From Nakamurella sp. PAMC28650 (GTDB taxonomy: Bacteria > Actinomycetota > Actinomycetes > Mycobacteriales > Nakamurellaceae), in assembly GCF_014303395.1 (NCBI RefSeq), contig NZ_CP060298.1:1922001-1986000 (forward strand): a stretch of 64,000 nucleotides of DNA, in the 5' to 3' direction. Below are positions 1 through 57,845 of this stretch, in pieces. The translations under genes and the position numbers were made by a program. The notes under the pieces were generated by a model that saw only the letters and a program-made list of their open reading frames with translations, made no database searches and was not told where the DNA came from. How positions within the stretch are numbered: the first letter of the stretch is position 1; the number at the start of each line of letters is the position of its first letter.

Positions 1-1772
1 GTGTCCACCGACGAGGTCGCCTCGTCCAGGATCAGCAGCGACGGGTCGGCCAGGAAGGCCCTTGCGATGGTCAGCAACTGCTTCTCCCCGGCGCTGACAT
101 TGCTGCCCTCGGCGTCGATCACGGTGTCGTAGCCGTCCTGCAGCGAATGGACGAATCGGTCGACGAAGGTGGCCTTCGCGGCGGCTAGGATCTCGGCCTC
201 GGTGGCACCGGGGCGGCCGTATGCGATGTTCTCCCGGATCGTCCCGCCGAAGAGCCAGGTGTCCTGCAGCACCATGCCGATCCTGGAACGCAGGTCGCTG
301 CGGGTCATCTCGCGGGTGTCGATGCCGTCCAGGGTGATCCGGCCGGCGTCGATCTCGTAGAACCGCATGATCAGGTTGACCAGCGTCGTCTTGCCCGCCC
401 CGGTCGGCCCCACGATGGCCACCGTCTGGCCGGGTGCGGCCACCAGTGACAGGTCCTCGATCAGTGGGGTGTCGGGCAGGTACCGGAAAGACACGTCCTG
501 GAACGCTACGCGGCCCTGGGTGGAGGTGATCGGGGCGACGCGCTGTACCTCCGCAGACTGCTCCGTCTCGTCCAGCAGCTCGAAAACCCGTTCCGCTGAA
601 GCAACTCCGGATTGCAGCACGTTCGCCATCGAGGCCAGTTGGGTGAGTGGCTGGGTGAACTGGCGCGAGTACTGGATGAACGCCTGCACGTCGCCGAGCG
701 TCATTGAGCCGCCGGCCACCCGCAGACCGCCGACGACGGCGACCGCGACGTACGTCAGGTTCCCGATGAACATCATCGCCGGCATGATGATGCCGGAGAC
801 GAACTGCGCGCCGAAGGAAGCCTCGTACAACTCGGCGTTCTTGTCCCGGAAGGTCTGCTCGACCTCCGGCTGACGACCGAAGACCTTGACCAGGCTGTGG
901 CCGGTGAAGGCCTCCTCGATCTGGCCGTTGAGTGCGCCGGTGTGTCGCCACTGGGCCACGAACATCTTCTGCGATCGCTTCGCGATCAAGGTGGTGACCA
1001 GCAACGACAGCGGAATGGCGACGACCGCGATCAGGGCCAGCAGGGGGGAGACGATCAGCATCATCACCAGCACGCCGACCAGCGTGAGCAGGGAGGTGAG
1101 CAGTTGGCTCATGGTCTGCTGCAGGGACTGCGAGACGTTGTCGATGTCATTCGTGACGCGGCTCAGCACTTCTCCGCGCTGCTGGCGGTCGAAGTAGGCC
1201 AGGGGCAGCCGGTTCAGCTTGTCCTCGACGTCATTGCGCAGCCGCAGGACGGTGCGCTGCACGATGCCGTTGAGCAGGTATCCCTGCCACCAGGAGAACA
1301 CCGAGGACGCGACGTAGAGGCACAGGACGGTGATCAGGACCCGGCCCAGCGAGCCGAAGTCGATGCCGTGCCCGGGGATCAGGTTCATCCCGGAGATCAG
1401 GTCGGCGAAGGAGTTCTGGCCCCTGGCCCTGGCTGCGTCGATCGCCTGCTGCCGGGTGATGCCCAGCGGCAACTGCTTGCCGACGATTCCGCTGAAGATG
1501 GTGTCGGTCGCCTTGCCGAGGATCTTCGGGCCGAGGACCGCTAGCGTCACGCTGCAGATGGCCAGCACGAAGACCAGGTAGACCCCGAGTCGTTCGGGCT
1601 GGAGTCGGCCGAACAGCCGCTTGGCCGACGGCCCGAAGTTCAGCGACTTCTCGGCCGGCTGGCCCATTCCGGCCATCGGACCACCGCTGCCCGGACCGCG
1701 ACGGGCCGGACCCGCAGCGCGAATGGTGGCCATGTCGTCCTCCGACTGGGAATTCTTGGTGGGCGTACTCAC
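1..1772 (-). CDS. ABC exporter half-transporter, canonical subunit (3' end beyond window)
   Basis: This is one subunit of a multidrug/lipid-type ABC exporter, with an N-terminal transmembrane domain and a C-terminal nucleotide-binding domain. The start is the GTG at 1772-1770, which overlaps the TGA of the preceding mini-ORF (GTGA) and gives VSTPTKNSQSEDD. A Gly/Pro-rich leader of about 50 residues precedes the first membrane helix. Walker A GPTGAGKTT lies near 380-405 (about residue 457). The signature is NVSAGEKQ near 90-105. Walker B plus D-loop, LLILDEATSSVD, lies at about 4-40, and the gene then leaves the window. This subunit keeps the catalytic Glu (LDEA), whereas its partner at 2231-3964 has Asp. 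The pair is therefore expected to be a heterodimer with one consensus and one degenerate ATP site (inference from family knowledge). It is probably co-transcribed with the partner and controlled by the TetR gene upstream. Confidence 0.93.
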   Translation of the reverse strand, partial: MSTPTKNSQSEDDMATIRAAGPARRGPGSGGPMAGMGQPAEKSLNFGPSAKRLFGRLQPERLGVYLVFVLAICSVTLAVLGPKILGKATDTIFSGIVGKQLPLGITRQQAIDAARARGQNSFADLISGMNLIPGHGIDFGSLGRVLITVLCLYVASSVFSWWQGYLLNGIVQRTVLRLRNDVEDKLNRLPLAYFDRQQRGEVLSRVTNDIDNVSQSLQQTMSQLLTSLLTLVGVLVMMLIVSPLLALIAVVAIPLSLLVTTLIAKRSQKMFVAQWRHTGALNGQIEEAFTGHSLVKVFGRQPEVEQTFRDKNAELYEASFGAQFVSGIIMPAMMFIGNLTYVAVAVVGGLRVAGGSMTLGDVQAFIQYSRQFTQPLTQLASMANVLQSGVASAERVFELLDETEQSAEVQRVAPITSTQGRVAFQDVSFRYLPDTPLIEDLSLVAAPGQTVAIVGPTGAGKTTLVNLIMRFYEIDAGRITLDGIDTREMTRSDLRSRIGMVLQDTWLFGGTIRENIAYGRPGATEAEILAAAKATFVDRFVHSLQDGYDTVIDAEGSNVSAGEKQLLTIARAFLADPSLLILDEATSSVD

Positions 1773-2234
1773 GCCGCCGCCTCCGCTCTGATGGTCGTCG
1801 CGGCGCTCGCTCCGCGCCTCGCTCGTTCCTCGCTCGTGTGCTCACTCACGCCGCCACCTCCGCTCTGATGGTCGTCGCGGCGCTCGCTCCGCGCCTCGCT
1901 CGTTCCTCGCTCGTGTGCTCACTCACGCCGCCACCTCCGCTCTGATGGTCGTCGCGGCGCTCGCTCCGCGCCTCGCTCGTTCCTCGCTCGTGTGCTCACT
2001 CACGCCGCCACCTCCGCTCTGATGGTCGTCGGGGCGCTCGCTCCGCGCCTCGCTCGTTCCTCGCTCGTGTGCTCACTCACGCCGCCACCTCCGCTCTGAT
2101 GGTCGTCGGGGCGCTCGCTCCGCGCCTCGCTCGTTCCTCGCTCGTGTGCTCACTCACGCCGCCACCTCCGCTCTGATGGTCGTCGGGGCGCTCGCTCCGC
2201 GCCTCGCTCGTTCCTCGCTCGTGTGCTCACTCAC
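1769..2234 (-). repeat. 77-bp tandem array, six copies, chain of GTGA-overlapping mini-ORFs
   Basis: Six direct copies of a 77-bp unit fill the gap between the two ABC genes (units start at 1771, 1848, 1925, 2002, 2079 and 2156). Read on the minus strand, each unit carries GTGAGTGAGCAC. A GTG start overlaps the TGA of the preceding frame, and the frame then runs 26 codons (VSEHTSEERARRGAS ... RAEVAA, stop). Unit length 77 equals 81 minus a 4-nt overlap, so six mini-ORFs link head to tail: 2234-2154, 2157-2077, 2080-2000, 2003-1923, 1926-1846 and 1849-1769. The last stop overlaps the GTG of the second ABC gene. The final five residues, AEVAA, match the C-terminus of the first ABC protein, so the unit includes a copy of that gene's 3' end. 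Copies differ at one base (C at 1801, 1878 and 1955; G at 2032, 2109 and 2186), which changes Ala to Pro. Whether the peptides are made is unknown. Confidence 0.9.
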
Positions 2235-3964
2235 GCCGCCACCTCCGCGGAGATCTGCGACCGGACGATCTCGCTGTAGGTCCCGCAGTTCTCCAGGAGT
2301 TCCTCGTGCCGGCCCATTCCGACGATGTGGCCGTCCTCCAGCACGATGATCTGGTCGGCGTCGATGATGGTCGAGACGCGTTGGGCCACGATGATCACCG
2401 TTGCGTCGAGGGTCTGCGGTTTCAGCGCAGCCCGGAGTCTGGCGTCGGTGGCCAGATCCAGGGCCGAGAAGGAATCGTCGAAGAGGTAGATGGAGGGTTT
2501 TCGTACCAGCGCTCTGGCGATCGCCAGCCGCTGTCGCTGCCCGCCGGAGACATTCGTGCCACCCTGGGAGATCGCGGAATCCAGGCCGTCCGGCATCTTC
2601 TGCACGAACCCCTTGGCCTGTGCGATCTCCAGGGCTTCCCACAGGTCGTCGTCCGTCGCCTGCGGATTGCCGTACCGGAGGTTGCTCGCCACCGTCCCCG
2701 AGAACAGGTACGGCTTCTGGGGGACGAGACCGATTCTCTCCCATAGAGTCTGAGGCGCCAGCTCACGCACGTCGATCCCGTCCATCGAGACCGTGCCGCC
2801 GGTGGCGTCAAAGAGTCTCGGGATCAACGAGACGAGCGTGGTCTTGCCCGCCCCGGTCGAGCCGATGATGGCTGTGGTGCGGCCCGGTTGCGCAGTGAAG
2901 TTGATGTCCCTGAGGACCGGCTCGTGGGCACCCGGGTAGCCGAAGTCGACCCCGGCGAACTCGAGGAGGCCGGTCCGGCGGGACGGCATTCTTGGTGAAA
3001 GCGGTGGCCGGACAGAACTTTCGGTGTCCAGCACCTCGCCGATCCGCTCGGCGCACACGGAGGCGCGCGGAATCATCACGGCCATGAAGGTCGCCATCAT
3101 GACGGCCATCAGGATCTGTAGCAGGTACGTCAGGAACGCAGTGAGCTGGCCGATCTGGAGCTGCCCGGAATCGACCCGATGACCACCGAACCAGAGCACC
3201 GCCACCGACGACACGTTCACCACCAGCATCACGGTCGGGAACAGGAGGGCCTGGTAGCGGCCGGCCTTGATCGCGGTGTCGGTGACGGCCGTGTTGGCAT
3301 CGCCGAACCTGGCCCGCTCCTGTGGCTCCCGGACGAAGGCCCGAACCACGCGAATCCCCGAGATCTGCTCGCGCAGCACCCGGTTGATGGTGTCGATCCT
3401 GGTCTGCATCAGACGGAACTGGGGCACCATCCGGCTGATGATCAGGCCGACGAGGACTACCAGCACCGGCACGCTGACCACCAGCAACCAGGACAGCCCT
3501 CCGTCCTCGGACACCGCCATGTAGACGCCGCCGATACAGGTGATCGGGGCGGACACCAGCAGGGTGCACGTCATCAGGACGAGCATCTGCACCTGCTGGA
3601 CGTCGTTCGTGTTACGGGTGATCAGCGATGGGGCGCCGAATTGGTTGACCTCACGATCGGAGAACTCGCCCACCCGGTGGAAGATGGCCTGACGCACGTC
3701 ACGGCCGAATCCCATCGCCGTGCGCGCTCCGAAGTACACCGCGACCACCGAGCAGATGATCTGCAGCAGCGTGACGGCCAACATGTAGCCGCCGCTGGTG
3801 AAGATGTAGCCGGTATCGCCTTTGGCGACACCTTTGTCGATGATGTCGGCGTTGAGCCTCGGCAGGTACAGCGAGGCGATGGTGCCGATCAGCTGGAAGA
3901 CGACGACCATCGTCAGCGGCCCCCGGTAGGGAGCGAGATACGTGCGGAGCAGTCGGATGAGCAT
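2231..3964 (-). CDS. ABC exporter half-transporter, degenerate-site subunit
   Basis: This is a 577-aa fused membrane/ATPase half-transporter that starts MLIRLLRTYLAPYRG. I chose the ATG at 3964 because GGGGAAAAC precedes it and the family usually begins a few residues before the first helix. A GTG at 4048 would add 28 residues unlike a transporter start. About six membrane segments fill residues 1-300. Walker A GSTGAGKTT is near residue 367, the signature NVSGGQRQR near 467 and Walker B YLFDDSFSALD near 490. The residue after the Walker B Asp is Asp, not Glu. That marks the non-hydrolysing site of heterodimeric exporters such as TM287/288 (family knowledge). Its partner is the next gene, which has LDEA. 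The two are separated by the 77-bp array, and the stop TGA at 2231-2233 overlaps the first mini-ORF. Confidence 0.94.
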   Translation of the reverse strand: MLIRLLRTYLAPYRGPLTMVVVFQLIGTIASLYLPRLNADIIDKGVAKGDTGYIFTSGGYMLAVTLLQIICSVVAVYFGARTAMGFGRDVRQAIFHRVGEFSDREVNQFGAPSLITRNTNDVQQVQMLVLMTCTLLVSAPITCIGGVYMAVSEDGGLSWLLVVSVPVLVVLVGLIISRMVPQFRLMQTRIDTINRVLREQISGIRVVRAFVREPQERARFGDANTAVTDTAIKAGRYQALLFPTVMLVVNVSSVAVLWFGGHRVDSGQLQIGQLTAFLTYLLQILMAVMMATFMAVMIPRASVCAERIGEVLDTESSVRPPLSPRMPSRRTGLLEFAGVDFGYPGAHEPVLRDINFTAQPGRTTAIIGSTGAGKTTLVSLIPRLFDATGGTVSMDGIDVRELAPQTLWERIGLVPQKPYLFSGTVASNLRYGNPQATDDDLWEALEIAQAKGFVQKMPDGLDSAISQGGTNVSGGQRQRLAIARALVRKPSIYLFDDSFSALDLATDARLRAALKPQTLDATVIIVAQRVSTIIDADQIIVLEDGHIVGMGRHEELLENCGTYSEIVRSQISAEVAA

Positions 3965-4089
3965 GTTTTCCCCGATGGTGATGTCGACTTCGGTGAGAAG
4001 GAGTGGGCTTGACCTGATGGTGCCGCCATCGACTGATACGGCTCGCACACGCCGCCGGGATCGGGCCGGGGCCGGGATCCGCTCGGCGA

Positions 4090-4692
4090 TCAGGGCGAGT
4101 GGGCGCGCAGGCCGTCCAGCAGCAGGTCCACGATCTCGTCCGGCTTGAGCGGGTTGTCGTCGGAGATTCGTGGATGGGTCCCGGCGAAGGTGACCAGGCG
4201 CATCACCCGGGCGAATTGTGCGACGTCGACCCGGAGGTTCTCGGCATCCGGTGCGATCAGGTCGATCAGGGCTTGGGGCGTGAGATCACTGTGCCGGTCT
4301 GAGGGAAGTGCATCGCGGAACCGGGGATTGTGCTCCGGAGGTCCCATCATCCGGAGCGCGGACATCAGTTCCCAGACGTTGTGGAGGCGGTCGGCAATGA
4401 TCTCGACGGCCTGCTGCAACCGTTCCCGCAGAGGCAGGGTGATGTCCACCGACTGCAGTTCTGCCACCGTGGGTGAGGGGTCGAAAACCCTGGTGACGAC
4501 GGCCAGGATCAGTGATTCCTTGTCCGGGAAGACCCGGAACAGAGTGCCCTCGGCGACGCCGGCGGCCTCGGCGATCTGTTTCGTGGTGACATCGTCACCG
4601 TGCTTGCGCAGCAGTGGTAGCGCGGCGTCGATGATCCCGTCCCGGCGCTGCTGCGGGGGCAGCGGAGACGCCCGGGTTCCTGGTGACCTCAC
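4090..4692 (-). CDS. TetR-family transcriptional regulator
   Basis: This is a 200-aa TetR-type repressor. The N-terminal helix-turn-helix is clear at residues 37-57 (TKQIAEAAGVAEGTLFRVFP), and the C-terminal half is the variable ligand and dimerisation domain. The start is GTG at 4692, preceded by AAGGTGG. It lies immediately upstream of the two ABC exporter genes on the same strand, about 125 bp before the chosen exporter start, as is typical for a drug- or lipid-responsive repressor that controls its own exporter. A perfect 8-2-8 inverted repeat lies 15 bp upstream of the start (4707-4724) and is the likely binding site. The ligand cannot be predicted from sequence. Confidence 0.92.
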   Translation of the reverse strand: MRSPGTRASPLPPQQRRDGIIDAALPLLRKHGDDVTTKQIAEAAGVAEGTLFRVFPDKESLILAVVTRVFDPSPTVAELQSVDITLPLRERLQQAVEIIADRLHNVWELMSALRMMGPPEHNPRFRDALPSDRHSDLTPQALIDLIAPDAENLRVDVAQFARVMRLVTFAGTHPRISDDNPLKPDEIVDLLLDGLRAHSP

Positions 4693-32472: not shown

Positions 32473-32923
32473 TCTGCGCGGCGCCGGATTCAACGGGGGG
32501 CGCAGCACTGCACCCGTCCCGCGAATGCCAGGGTGACCACCTGGACCTGTCCTGCGCCGACGAGATCCGCCCGATCGCGAACCTCCCGAACGGGAGAATC
32601 ACGGAGGAATCACTCGTGTCGCCGAACAGCCGCTCACCGCAACCGGGAGCGCGAGGTGCAGGACCCACATCCGGCGTCACTGGCTCCGGGGGTAGCGGCG
32701 GGGAGGGCGACCTGCGTCGCCGGTGCCCGTCACCGTTCGTCCTGCTCGCACTTTCGGTTCACTCAGGGGTCCAGACGGGCACGTTCAGCGGCGCTACCGG
32801 CCATGCCTGGATGAAATCCGTCGTGTGACAACAGTTCTTACTCCACAGCGGGCTATCCCAACAAGGGGTTGGGCGTTCGGAATCGATACACCGAGGCGCT
32901 GACGGGCACTTTGACCTGCCCTG

Positions 32924-33430
32924 CCCGGTATGACTGCCGGGCCGCGGGCATGAGCGCCTTGCCCCGGTATGACTGTGGGGCCGTGGGTATGACGTGCCTT
33001 GCCCGGGTGTGACTGCCGGGCCCGGGGTATGACGCGCCTTGCCCGGTATGACTGCCGGTCCGGGTGTACGACGCTCGAGGGGCAGACGAGCGGGTCTCCG
33101 GTCCGACGAGCTGCGGACGGTGCTACCAGCTGCGGCTCGAGGGGTAGACGAGCGGGTCGCCGGTCCTACGAGTCTGGCGTGGCTTCCCCTGTACGACTGC
33201 CGGGCCTGGGGTATGACGCTCGAGGGGTAGACGAGCGGGTCGCCGGTCCTACGAGTCTGGCGTGGCTTCCCCTGTATGACTGCCGGGCCTGGGGTATGAC
33301 GCTCGAGGGGCAGACGAGCGGGTCGCCGGTCCTGCGAGCGTCTGGCGTGGCTTCCCCTGTATGACTGCCGGGTCTGGGGTATGACGCTCGAGGGGCAGAC
33401 GAGCGGGTCGCCGGTCCGACGAGCTGCGGA
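32924..33430. repeat. Two-tier repeat array built on GTATGAC/GTACGAC words
   Basis: From 32924 to 33065 four units of 39-40 bp each hold two GTATGAC-like heptamers about 20 bp apart (32928, 32967, 32987, 33007, 33027, 33046). From about 33062 to 33430 larger units of 83-85 bp follow (GTAYGAC at 33191, 33274 and 33359, each with a second at +20), joined by GCTCGAGGGGYAGACGAGCG. Frames through it are repetitive and not genes. It lies downstream of gtrA and upstream of the metallopeptidase. Confidence 0.85.
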
Positions 33431-48921: not shown

Positions 48922-49180
48922 CGCGCGGCTCGCCAGGCTCGCTCGGCTCGGCTCGGCCCGGCGGCCCGGCTCGGCCCGGCGGCCCGGCTCGGCCCGGCAT
49001 AGCTCGTATGACCGGCCCCGGCTCAGCTTGTATGACCGGCCCCGGCTCAGCTTGTACGACCGGCCCCGGCTCAGCTTGTACGACCGGCCCCGGCTCAGCT
49101 TGTACGACCGGCCCCGGCTCAGCTTGTACGACCGGCCCCGGCTCGTATGATCCGGTGCCCCCTAGTAGGACGCTTGAGCG
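48922..49180. repeat. Convergent-gap repeat array, 24-bp period
   Basis: First come GGCTCGGCCC-type repeats (48930-49000). Then GTATGACC or GTACGACC heads 24-bp units at 49006, 49030, 49054, 49078, 49102 and 49126, with a partial unit at 49145. The spacer is CGGCCCCGGCTCAGCTT. The array fills the gap between hpt and the convergent DUF559-type gene. It contains no gene. Confidence 0.88.
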
Positions 49181-50400: not shown

Positions 50401-50612
50401 GTCCTACCGGGACGGCCCGCGTCCTACCGCCGGGATGCGGTCATACCGCCCGGGGCGCGGTCATACCGCCCGGGGCGCGGTCCTACCGCCGGCATGCGGT
50501 CCTACCTCCGGGGCGCGGTCATACCGCCGGGATGCGGTCCTACCGCCGGGATGCGGTCCTACCGCCGGGATGCGGTCCTACCGCTGGGGCGCGGTCATAC
50601 CGCCTGATCACG
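50401..50612. repeat. 20-bp tandem array upstream of ftsH
   Basis: About ten units repeat at an exact 20-bp period (50401, 50421, 50440, 50460, 50480 and so on), each with GTCATACCGCC or GTCCTACCGCC. GTCATAC is the reverse complement of the GTATGAC word of the other arrays. The array lies in the 597-bp divergent gap 50267-50863, which otherwise holds the ftsH promoter region (about 50640-50860) and no gene. Confidence 0.88.
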
Positions 50613-56324: not shown

Positions 56325-57845
56325 ATGAGTCCAGCAGCGAACCGCTCCCGCCGTGGTGCGACGCCTGTGCTCATGCGGGGCCTGCTGGTGCTGGGTTTCC
56401 TGCTGGCGATCGGGGCCGTCGCCGTCGCGGTGTTCTCCACTGACGTCCGCCTGCTGAAGCTCGCTGCGCTGCTGGGGGTCTGGGCTGCGCTCACCACGGC
56501 ATTTCCGGTGGTCTATTTCCGCAGGACCGCCCGAACGGCCGAGCAGAAGACCGAGGAGAGCAAGCGAACCTACGAACTGGAACTGCACCGGGAGATCAGT
56601 GCCCGGCGTGAGTACGAGATCGGGGTGTCCGAAGCCGCCCGGGAGGATGCCGAGACCAGGCACCGCGAAGAACTGGCGGGCCTGAGGGAGCAATTGGACC
56701 GACTGAACAACACGCTGTCCGGGCTGCTGGACGGCGATCTGCTCTTCGAACGGCTGACCCTGTCGGCCGAATCGACGCGCGTGCGACAGGTGGGCGGCGA
56801 TAGTGGCCGCGGCCGGCTGGCCGCCATGGCGCGCACCGGGCAGATCGAGAACGTCCCGGGGTCGACCGGACCCTACGTCGGAGGTCAGTCGGGGGCGCCG
56901 GTGGCCGTCGGGACTCCGTCGGGGCCGCCGTCACGCACGCCGTACCCGATGCGGGAGGACGACACGGTGCAGTTCCCGCGGGCGACCTTCGGAGCCGGAG
57001 TGCGCGGGGGCACGGATGCGTCGGTCGGTCCGGTAGTGGTCGATGCGCCCGTCCCCGTCACCGGGAACGTCCCTGGGAACGGACATGCACAGGGCCAGGC
57101 GCCGGCGTCGCCGTTCGCGAACGTGGCGACACCGTTCACGCAGGCGTCCGTGCCGCCGGCCGCTCCCGCCGCGGTGGCCGTCGCGCCGGGCGAGGCCGAC
57201 GAAGTGCCGGAACCCGCAGCCGAGGTGCCGCACGTCGACGACGTGACGCCGGTTGACGAAGTCGCGCAGGTACACCAGATCGCGCATGTCGACGACGTGG
57301 CGCCGGTTGACGAAGTCGCGCAGGTACACCAGATCGCGCATGTCGACGACGTGGCGCCGGTTGACGAGGTCGCGCAGGTACACCAGATCGCGCATGTCGA
57401 CGACGTGGCGCCGGTTGACGAGGTCGCGCAGTTACACGAGGTCGCACCCGTCGACGATGCGGCGCACGTCGATGCGGCTGCACCCGTTGATGGAGCCGCG
57501 CACGTGGTTGAAGCCGAGGCCGAACCGGCGCCGGACCCCGAGCCGGAACCCGAACCCGAACCGGCAGTTGAGGCTGAAGTCGAACCCCAGCCGGCGCCAG
57601 AGCCGACGCCCGAGCCGGCGGCCGTCGTCATGGCGGCGACGACATCGGAGCTCGACCCGGAAACCGTGATCGCCGACACCGAACCAGTGACCGCCGACAC
57701 CGAACCAGTCATGGGCCCTGACAGTCCGCCGGAGCATGCGGACGCCGGGACCGGGCATTCGGCCGGGATCTCGGTGGCCGACCTGCTCGCTGCCTACGGC
57801 GCCACCGAGGGCACGCCGCGCCGCCGCCGCCGCGCCGAGGACTGA
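56325..57845 (+). CDS. Rv3604c-like membrane protein with Ala/Pro/Glu repeat tail (DUF6779-type)
   Basis: This is a 506-aa protein. Two helices (LMRGLLVLGFLLAIGAVAVA and LAALLGVWAALTTAFPVVYF) precede a coiled-coil (about residues 70-130, TEESKRTYELELHREISARR). The rest is low complexity and acidic. It includes four copies of an 18-aa unit (HVDDVAPVDEVAQVHQIA, from 54-bp repeats) and EPEPEPEP runs. Position after DUF3180 matches Rv3604c, also Ala/Pro-rich. ATG 56325 begins MSPAANRSRRG. The function is unknown; a cytoplasmic scaffold is possible. Confidence 0.8.
   Translation: MSPAANRSRRGATPVLMRGLLVLGFLLAIGAVAVAVFSTDVRLLKLAALLGVWAALTTAFPVVYFRRTARTAEQKTEESKRTYELELHREISARREYEIGVSEAAREDAETRHREELAGLREQLDRLNNTLSGLLDGDLLFERLTLSAESTRVRQVGGDSGRGRLAAMARTGQIENVPGSTGPYVGGQSGAPVAVGTPSGPPSRTPYPMREDDTVQFPRATFGAGVRGGTDASVGPVVVDAPVPVTGNVPGNGHAQGQAPASPFANVATPFTQASVPPAAPAAVAVAPGEADEVPEPAAEVPHVDDVTPVDEVAQVHQIAHVDDVAPVDEVAQVHQIAHVDDVAPVDEVAQVHQIAHVDDVAPVDEVAQLHEVAPVDDAAHVDAAAPVDGAAHVVEAEAEPAPDPEPEPEPEPAVEAEVEPQPAPEPTPEPAAVVMAATTSELDPETVIADTEPVTADTEPVMGPDSPPEHADAGTGHSAGISVADLLAAYGATEGTPRRRRRAED
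57231..57446 (+). repeat. 54-bp coding tandem repeat (x4)
   Basis: Four 54-bp units start at 57231, 57285, 57339 and 57393, nearly identical, each encoding HVDDVAPVDEVAQVHQIA; the last diverges. High identity suggests recent expansion or ongoing homogenisation. Confidence 0.92.

Follow-up and report, generated by a model that had tools for sequence, protein, structure and literature searches.

Mycobacterial interspersed repetitive units (MIRUs), a name that reportedly goes back to Supply et al. in 1997, occur as many dispersed copies in a genome. According to passages of a 2025 review, MIRUs appear mobile, insert at start codons, carry an open reading frame (ORF) coupled at −4 nt and probably affect the gene little by their insertion (PMC12548453), and a section of PMC2267715 describes an M. 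tuberculosis stem-loop family that contains MIRU repeats. At senX3-regX3, excerpts of two papers report 77-bp units in varying number (PMC4213456, PMC9392950), one of the two adding a 53-bp unit, with the number of 77-bp units varying between BCG strains (PMC9392950). Termination-reinitiation at 4-nt overlaps is treated in part of PMC10666635 and in PMC6728339, and subunits of heteromeric complexes are reportedly enriched for short overlaps. Here we analysed a 64,000-nt stretch of Nakamurella sp. PAMC28650 (NZ_CP060298.1, positions 1,922,001 to 1,986,000; hereafter the window), in which six tandem 77-bp units, each a mini-ORF, lie between the genes for the two halves of an ATP-binding cassette (ABC) exporter, ABC1 and ABC2. 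We consider it likely that a MIRU-like non-autonomous repeat entered the ABC1-ABC2 overlap and was amplified to six copies, the mini-ORFs being the price of a tolerated insertion.

Tandem Repeats Finder (TRF) reported a 77-bp period at 1767-2248 (6.3 copies, 99% matches, score 936), within which six units run along the minus strand in the region 1769-2234, starting at 2234, 2157, 2080, 2003, 1926 and 1849. Each unit is a 26-codon GTG...TGA frame with the peptide VSEHTSEERARRGAS[A/P]TTIRAE[V/A]AA*, and the stop-to-start path that leaves the ABC1 stop passes through 26, 26, 26, 26, 26 and 26 codons before arriving at the ABC2 GTG at 1772. Both results bear out the six-link chain of 4-nt-overlapping mini-ORFs between the ABC genes claimed in a preliminary description of this DNA, which had the array and its frames right and left unstated that everything lies on the minus strand. 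All seven junctions, five between units and two between gene and unit, are GTGA, and GGAGG stands 7 nt ahead of all seven starts, the final copy reading GGAGGC; the coupling geometry read earlier, 77 = 81 − 4, is real. The features of the locus, in the order of transcription, are as follows.

4090 to 4692, minus strand: TetR-family regulator (Pfam TetR_N, 2.3e-12), upstream of ABC1 in the same direction
2231 to 4048, minus strand: ABC1, first exporter half (ABC_membrane and ABC_tran; matches 8wcw_A, 9.2e-219, and 3qf4_A, 1.2e-132)
2235 to 2248, minus strand: ABC1 3′ end GCGGAGGTGGCGGC, which recurs at unit ends and holds the Shine-Dalgarno-like GGAGGT
2158 to 2234, minus strand: unit 1 (mini-ORF 2154-2234)
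2081 to 2157, minus strand: unit 2 (mini-ORF 2077-2157)
2004 to 2080, minus strand: unit 3 (mini-ORF 2000-2080)
1927 to 2003, minus strand: unit 4 (mini-ORF 1923-2003)
1850 to 1926, minus strand: unit 5 (mini-ORF 1846-1926)
1773 to 1849, minus strand: unit 6 (mini-ORF 1769-1849), with GGAGGC, not GGAGGT, ahead of the ABC2 start
1 to 1772, minus strand: ABC2, second exporter half (GTG start at 1772; matches 8wcw_B, 3.5e-215, and 3qf4_B, 2.2e-123)

Two sites vary among the units, position 49 with C or G and position 71, where T gives way to C in the last unit, and the GCGGAGGTGGCGGC copy in unit 6 carries one change. An open frame is by itself unsurprising and explained by composition: when one unit was shuffled with its dinucleotides preserved, the coupled frame remained free of stops in 1534 of 2000 trials, and any tandem copies added to an open 77-bp unit preserve the chain automatically. 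Beyond chance are the array itself, its core motif (six matches with up to three mismatches in the window, against a mean of 0.88 and a maximum of 4 in 100 shuffles) and the exact placement in the stop/start overlap, making the position of the array, not the open frame, the informative feature. In the window's own genome, a 20-nt core allowing up to two mismatches was found in this array only. A plasmid search returned one short match, of 32 nt (E 0.004), to a Clavibacter plasmid.

The junction was compared in a genus sample of 17 genomes, the window's own included, queried with ABC1, which was present in 16 of them (G004 fails E 1e-150). ABC1 and ABC2 overlap directly by 4 nt, with no unit between them, in 14 of these 16 genomes (13 ATGA, 1 GTGA). 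The closest relative, G001, whose ABC1 is 83% identical, carries exactly one unit, with the ABC2 start shifted by 77 and a chain of one 26-codon frame followed by ABC2, and the window genome, G000, carries six, with the ABC2 start shifted by 462. The preliminary description had proposed a survey of unit number in related genomes, and the genus indeed holds 0, 1 and 6. The direction of change at this junction would be gain, not loss, with the repeat probably inserting into the 4-nt stop/start overlap and multiplying there afterwards.

The single unit of G001 is identical to the window units at 66-67 of 77 positions and encodes a similar peptide, MSEHTSEERARRGANVATTMEAEVAA. The last 24 nt of the unit match the end of their own ABC1 at 18/24 positions in G000 and 20/24 in G001, as compared with 15/24 for the ABC1 end of the other species in both cross comparisons, a likeness that fits copying of the end by the inserting element, homogenisation at a later time or an independent insertion in each species. 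A host-matched layout is weakly suggested by eye in the two species: in the window the ABC1 end GTGGCGGCG faces the arm complement GTCGCGGCG, and at the overlap base A stands opposite T in G001 and G opposite C in G000, an observation by eye in two species that proves nothing.

The two exporter halves match the same solved transporters (8wcw and 3qf4), the A chains matching ABC1 and the B chains ABC2. At the usual motif places ABC1 has FDD and ABC2 has SAGEKQ, which we take to point to a heterodimer in which one site is degenerate. ABC2 is intact, with 685 aa from the GTG at 1772 and its 3′ part beyond the window. The true start of ABC1 probably lies near 3964, because matches begin at residue 23-29 in 14 of 15 other genomes, the fifteenth (L040) being excepted for a contig end.

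Outside the genus, the GCGAGGAACGAGCGAGG element family shares its core exactly with the window, where it has six copies, and none of 500 shuffles reached the similarity score between the window unit and the elements of families f7 and f16; these comparisons, like that with the MIRU-type element below, used a 77-nt slice of the array shifted by four bases. Among 397 genomes drawn from the order, 75 contain the exact 17-nt core, mainly in family f16, and the reversed control gave one match. When 198 genomes from across the phylum were sampled, three had the core, namely the window's own genome, G837 and G806, although on visual inspection no element surrounds it in G806. In G837, which lies outside the order, locus L236 has three core copies with a spacing of 83, the first directly after a TGA, and the exact 17-nt core also occurs in 12 viral stretches (L194-L205).

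To place related copies relative to genes, we examined part of the order's matches (30 + 30 + 17 loci and 80 regions), retained copies with at most one mismatch and removed duplicates and copies less than 150 nt from the start or less than 200 nt from the end of a locus. The final set holds 161 copies, the window excluded and some probable chance matches left in, and gene ends, overlaps and chains were called by ORF rules, without annotation. A long frame with high G+C at third codon positions (GC3) stops within 60 nt upstream of the copy in 92/161 cases in the sense direction, as compared with 13/161 in the antisense direction and 42/673 at random positions, and TGA accounts for 93 of the 99 stops. 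Under a slightly different rule, a 4-nt overlap lies within 70 nt in 84 of the 161 copies. The path onward stays open in 69 of these 84, with 44 reaching a long frame through a further overlap and 25 through fusion in frame; 12 stop and three are unclear. Counted per frame by a similar rule, the 161 copies give 44, 26 and 24 overlaps in the three sense frames and 1, 1 and 3 in the antisense frames, and random positions give 39/2816 in sense and 17/2816 in antisense. The surroundings of the core are open in all three sense frames in 130/161 copies; this openness reflects composition, because all three antisense frames are open as well in 144/161.

Tandem arrays of related copies have spacings of 57 to 83 among the arrays listed. 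Locus L179, from a probable Mycobacterium, has two units with a spacing of 77, each a 26-codon ATG...TGA frame, ahead of a yvcK-like gene, and its first unit overlaps by ATGA the stop of a 442-codon frame, following the same rule as the window. Our chain rule overlooked this locus, since the GC3 of its host frame is 0.742 and the cut-off is 0.75, and the rule thus loses true cases. At L098 the period is 78 and the units continue in frame, and in the f16 arrays L100, L057, L096 and L142 the 4-nt overlap rule flagged none. At carA-like (L011, L045, L046, L148, L219) and yvcK-like (L179, L220) junctions, the repeats belong to different families from one genome to the next, a pattern suggestive of hot spots at these overlaps; the gene names were assigned by eye from the first residues.

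Compared with MIRUs, the small ORFs of the window likewise overlap their neighbours by 4 nt at start and stop; the repeat sits at the overlapping stop/start of an operon, an overlap that stands without a unit in 14/16 genomes; and the 77-bp units are tandem and vary in number, here 0, 1 and 6 between the species of one genus. The idea of such a chain, presented earlier as new, has precedents in the −4 nt coupling of the MIRU ORF (PMC12548453) and the 77-bp senX3-regX3 units (PMC4213456, PMC9392950), as far as the sections cited above describe them. Despite these similarities, the local score of the window unit against a 53-bp MIRU-type composite, which is not an authentic M. tuberculosis MIRU, was 23 against a shuffle mean of 19.1, 89 of 500 shuffles being equally good, and for the f7 element against the same composite 405 of 500 shuffles were equally good. 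Moreover, the window genome, which belongs to family f1 rather than to the f7 of the probable mycobacteria, has six copies at one locus, an ABC exporter, and no dispersed copies. In its working, the array resembles a MIRU and would represent a separate family of the same kind; by sequence, no MIRU was detected. Such repeats outside mycobacteria were not described in the top-ranked matches from the open-access literature, a weak negative given that most subscription journals are uncovered.

The MIRU-type core GATGCAGAGCGNAGCGATG was found in 13 of the 31 genomes around G456, all of genus g7, with tandem spacings of 50-54; genus g7 would be Mycobacterium and the core that of MIRU. At the ~53-bp MIRU-type elements (L206-L235, probable Mycobacterium), ATGA-type overlaps are frequent and a frame of ~18 codons often runs up to the following gene; this layout resembles that of the window, but the core is GATGCAGAGCGNAGCGATG instead of the window family's GCGAGGAACGAGCGAGG. 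Among 27 distinct sites with enough flank, ten chains reach a long frame (for example 18-336 at L209 and 18-359 at L220), one stops and 16 have no upstream overlapping stop by the rule used.

Alongside what is observed, namely the anatomy, the empty and filled sites and the sense placement of relatives at gene ends, we infer insertion, amplification, serial restart and near-neutrality. A ~53-bp element (77 minus the copied tail; GYGAGCACACGAGCGAGGAACGAGCGAGGCGCGGAGCGA...) would insert into the 4-nt stop/start overlap of ABC1 and ABC2 and bring with it a second copy of ~20-24 nt of the ABC1 end, including the Shine-Dalgarno-like sequence and the overlapping stop/start, and one unit would then become six in this genome via unequal recombination or slippage. 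Ribosomes ending ABC1 would terminate and restart seven times and then reach ABC2, which is possible because the unit is open, has a length of 3n − 4 and ends in the copied GGAGGT...GTGA. The mechanism invoked at each junction is that of termination-reinitiation systems at 4-nt overlaps (PMC10666635, in the part cited), from which the window differs by interposing six mini-ORFs and hence needing seven successive restarts. Reporter work in the same part of that paper has coupling almost gone at ~20 nt between genes (PMC10666635), so across the 458-nt gap ABC2 would lose its coupling if neither the mini-ORFs nor the repeated GGAGGT returned ribosomes. By holding ABC1 and ABC2 coupled, the mini-ORFs would make the insertion cheap, and they probably neither encode functional peptides nor evolved as a dial.

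Several points weigh against this account. Support for mobility comes from other families, the window's own genome having one array only and its sister one exact copy; the transposition and translation steps are read from sequence alone; and independent insertion in G000 and G001 is possible. Coupled pairs are not the sole target, as 77 of the 161 related copies have no overlapping host stop upstream. Onward continuity, 71 of 94 sense hits at elements against 27 of 39 random sense overlaps, is not clearly above background; natural overlapping pairs reach on by nature. The direct-repeat permutation (9.15 against 6.50 nt, 0/5000) is inflated, because it was not made within classes and included tandem neighbours, and the copied length has no sharp definition.

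A set of dispersed repeats, L041-L150, mostly from f16, lies in many cases directly after gene ends, with an outer arm that pairs over 8 nt at or beside the host stop and often a second copy of the host gene end downstream. For the class B outer arms (39 f16-type rows, 26 distinct pairs), the 8 nt before GACAG and the 8 nt after the core form 6.19/8 Watson-Crick pairs as compared with 4.05 when permuted, a value reached in 0/10000 permutations, and the class B inner arms give 3.32/4 against 2.21 (19 distinct, 0/10000). In 21 of the 39 class B rows a long GC3-rich frame terminates within or beside the 5′ arm, which makes that arm the host gene end; the other 18 have no such stop by this rule. 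Class A inner arms (41 rows, 24 distinct) give 4.08/5 against 3.19 (0/10000), a result obtained with the arm re-cut at the aligned position and the selection rule widened to 41 rows, and the signal depends on the cut, an arm shifted by one base having given 2.38 against 2.42 in 36 rows; 29 of the 41 class A rows lie at a 4-nt overlap. All of these counts overstate independence, as related genomes and tandem copies share history, and a pooled stem test, which mixes classes, is not main evidence. On this material one may tentatively, and with more doubt than belief, regard the repeat as one of a widespread set of very small mobile hairpins that use base pairing to locate gene ends or to match them; the array would then be the tandem extreme of a translation-transparent element, with unit number as a possible dial. 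Under this proposal the variable 3′ arm would complement the host's last codons and stop, and insertion would duplicate that end of the gene, ribosome-binding sequence and overlapping start included, the element itself being mostly stop-free. If true, the element would settle between coupled genes without breaking translation.

Other accounts of the array can be weighed against insertion of a MIRU-like repeat on the same evidence. An origin purely by local slippage of host sequence can be dismissed, as the core recurs across many genomes. Were unit number a functional dial, each restart would lose ribosomes, six units would lower ABC2 relative to ABC1 and slippage would give heritable variants. 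Such tuning is possible from the sequence, and both the difference in unit number between species and the replacement of GGAGGT by GGAGGC ahead of ABC2 in the final unit would suit it. However, ABC1 and ABC2 have the appearance of a heterodimer with unequal halves, and because such halves are expected at equal output, the dial is disfavoured; furthermore, 14/16 genomes manage without any unit, and the ribosome-binding-like sequence in each unit could restore initiation. Even with the variation of 77-bp senX3-regX3 units between BCG strains counted in its favour (PMC9392950, in the excerpt cited), we consider a dial rather unlikely. We are similarly sceptical that the repeat acts via RNA or DNA structure, as a processing site, a stability element or a protein-binding hairpin, with the mini-ORFs incidental: the arms of the f16 elements do covary in class A inner and in class B inner and outer arms, but one window unit with its flank folds no better than shuffles (z −0.58, 48/200 equally good), nor does the whole array stand out (z −1.47, 8/100), Rfam gave no family at the array and a single sub-threshold match adjoining it, inside ABC2, and the preferences for orientation and overlap point to translation.

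That the array supplies the promoter of ABC2 appears very unlikely. For M. tuberculosis, promoter activity has been reported in the MIRU region between senX3 and regX3 (PMC4213456), but a scan of 1700-2300, covering the sigma-70-type consensus only, found no site, including the separate promoter upstream of 1772 that the preliminary description had held would speak against coupling. The least credible account is that of six copies of a functional small peptide, also raised earlier: six nearly identical open frames and the similar peptide kept by the sister genome are what it would predict, yet openness is expected from composition, as the shuffles of one unit indicate, the C-terminus of the peptide looks like the end of ABC1, and related copies are read in all three sense frames, for example VSEHRSEERARSGA, VSIAARNERGAERA and VTTAPGASQRGTSEERT.

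Elsewhere in the window, two more arrays, at 32918-33074 (39 bp) and 33135-33423 (83 bp), share TATGACTGCCGGGCC, which with at most one mismatch occurs at six places in the genome, all of them in these two arrays. Further TRF arrays lie at 50421-50604, 48993-49144 and 57229-57465, with periods of 19/57, 24 and 54 bp, respectively.

Taking the insertion of a MIRU-like repeat as the preferred reading, the empty, one-copy and six-copy states within one genus indicate how a repeat enters an overlapping gene pair and what possible coupled path it leaves, and reveal a MIRU-like lifestyle in a repeat of unrelated sequence and in families beyond that of the probable mycobacteria. The host-matched arms of the relatives offer a clue to the way in which short repeats select gene ends or become adapted to them, and the 0, 1 and 6 units provide a natural series in which to measure how many steps of termination and reinitiation a ribosome survives.
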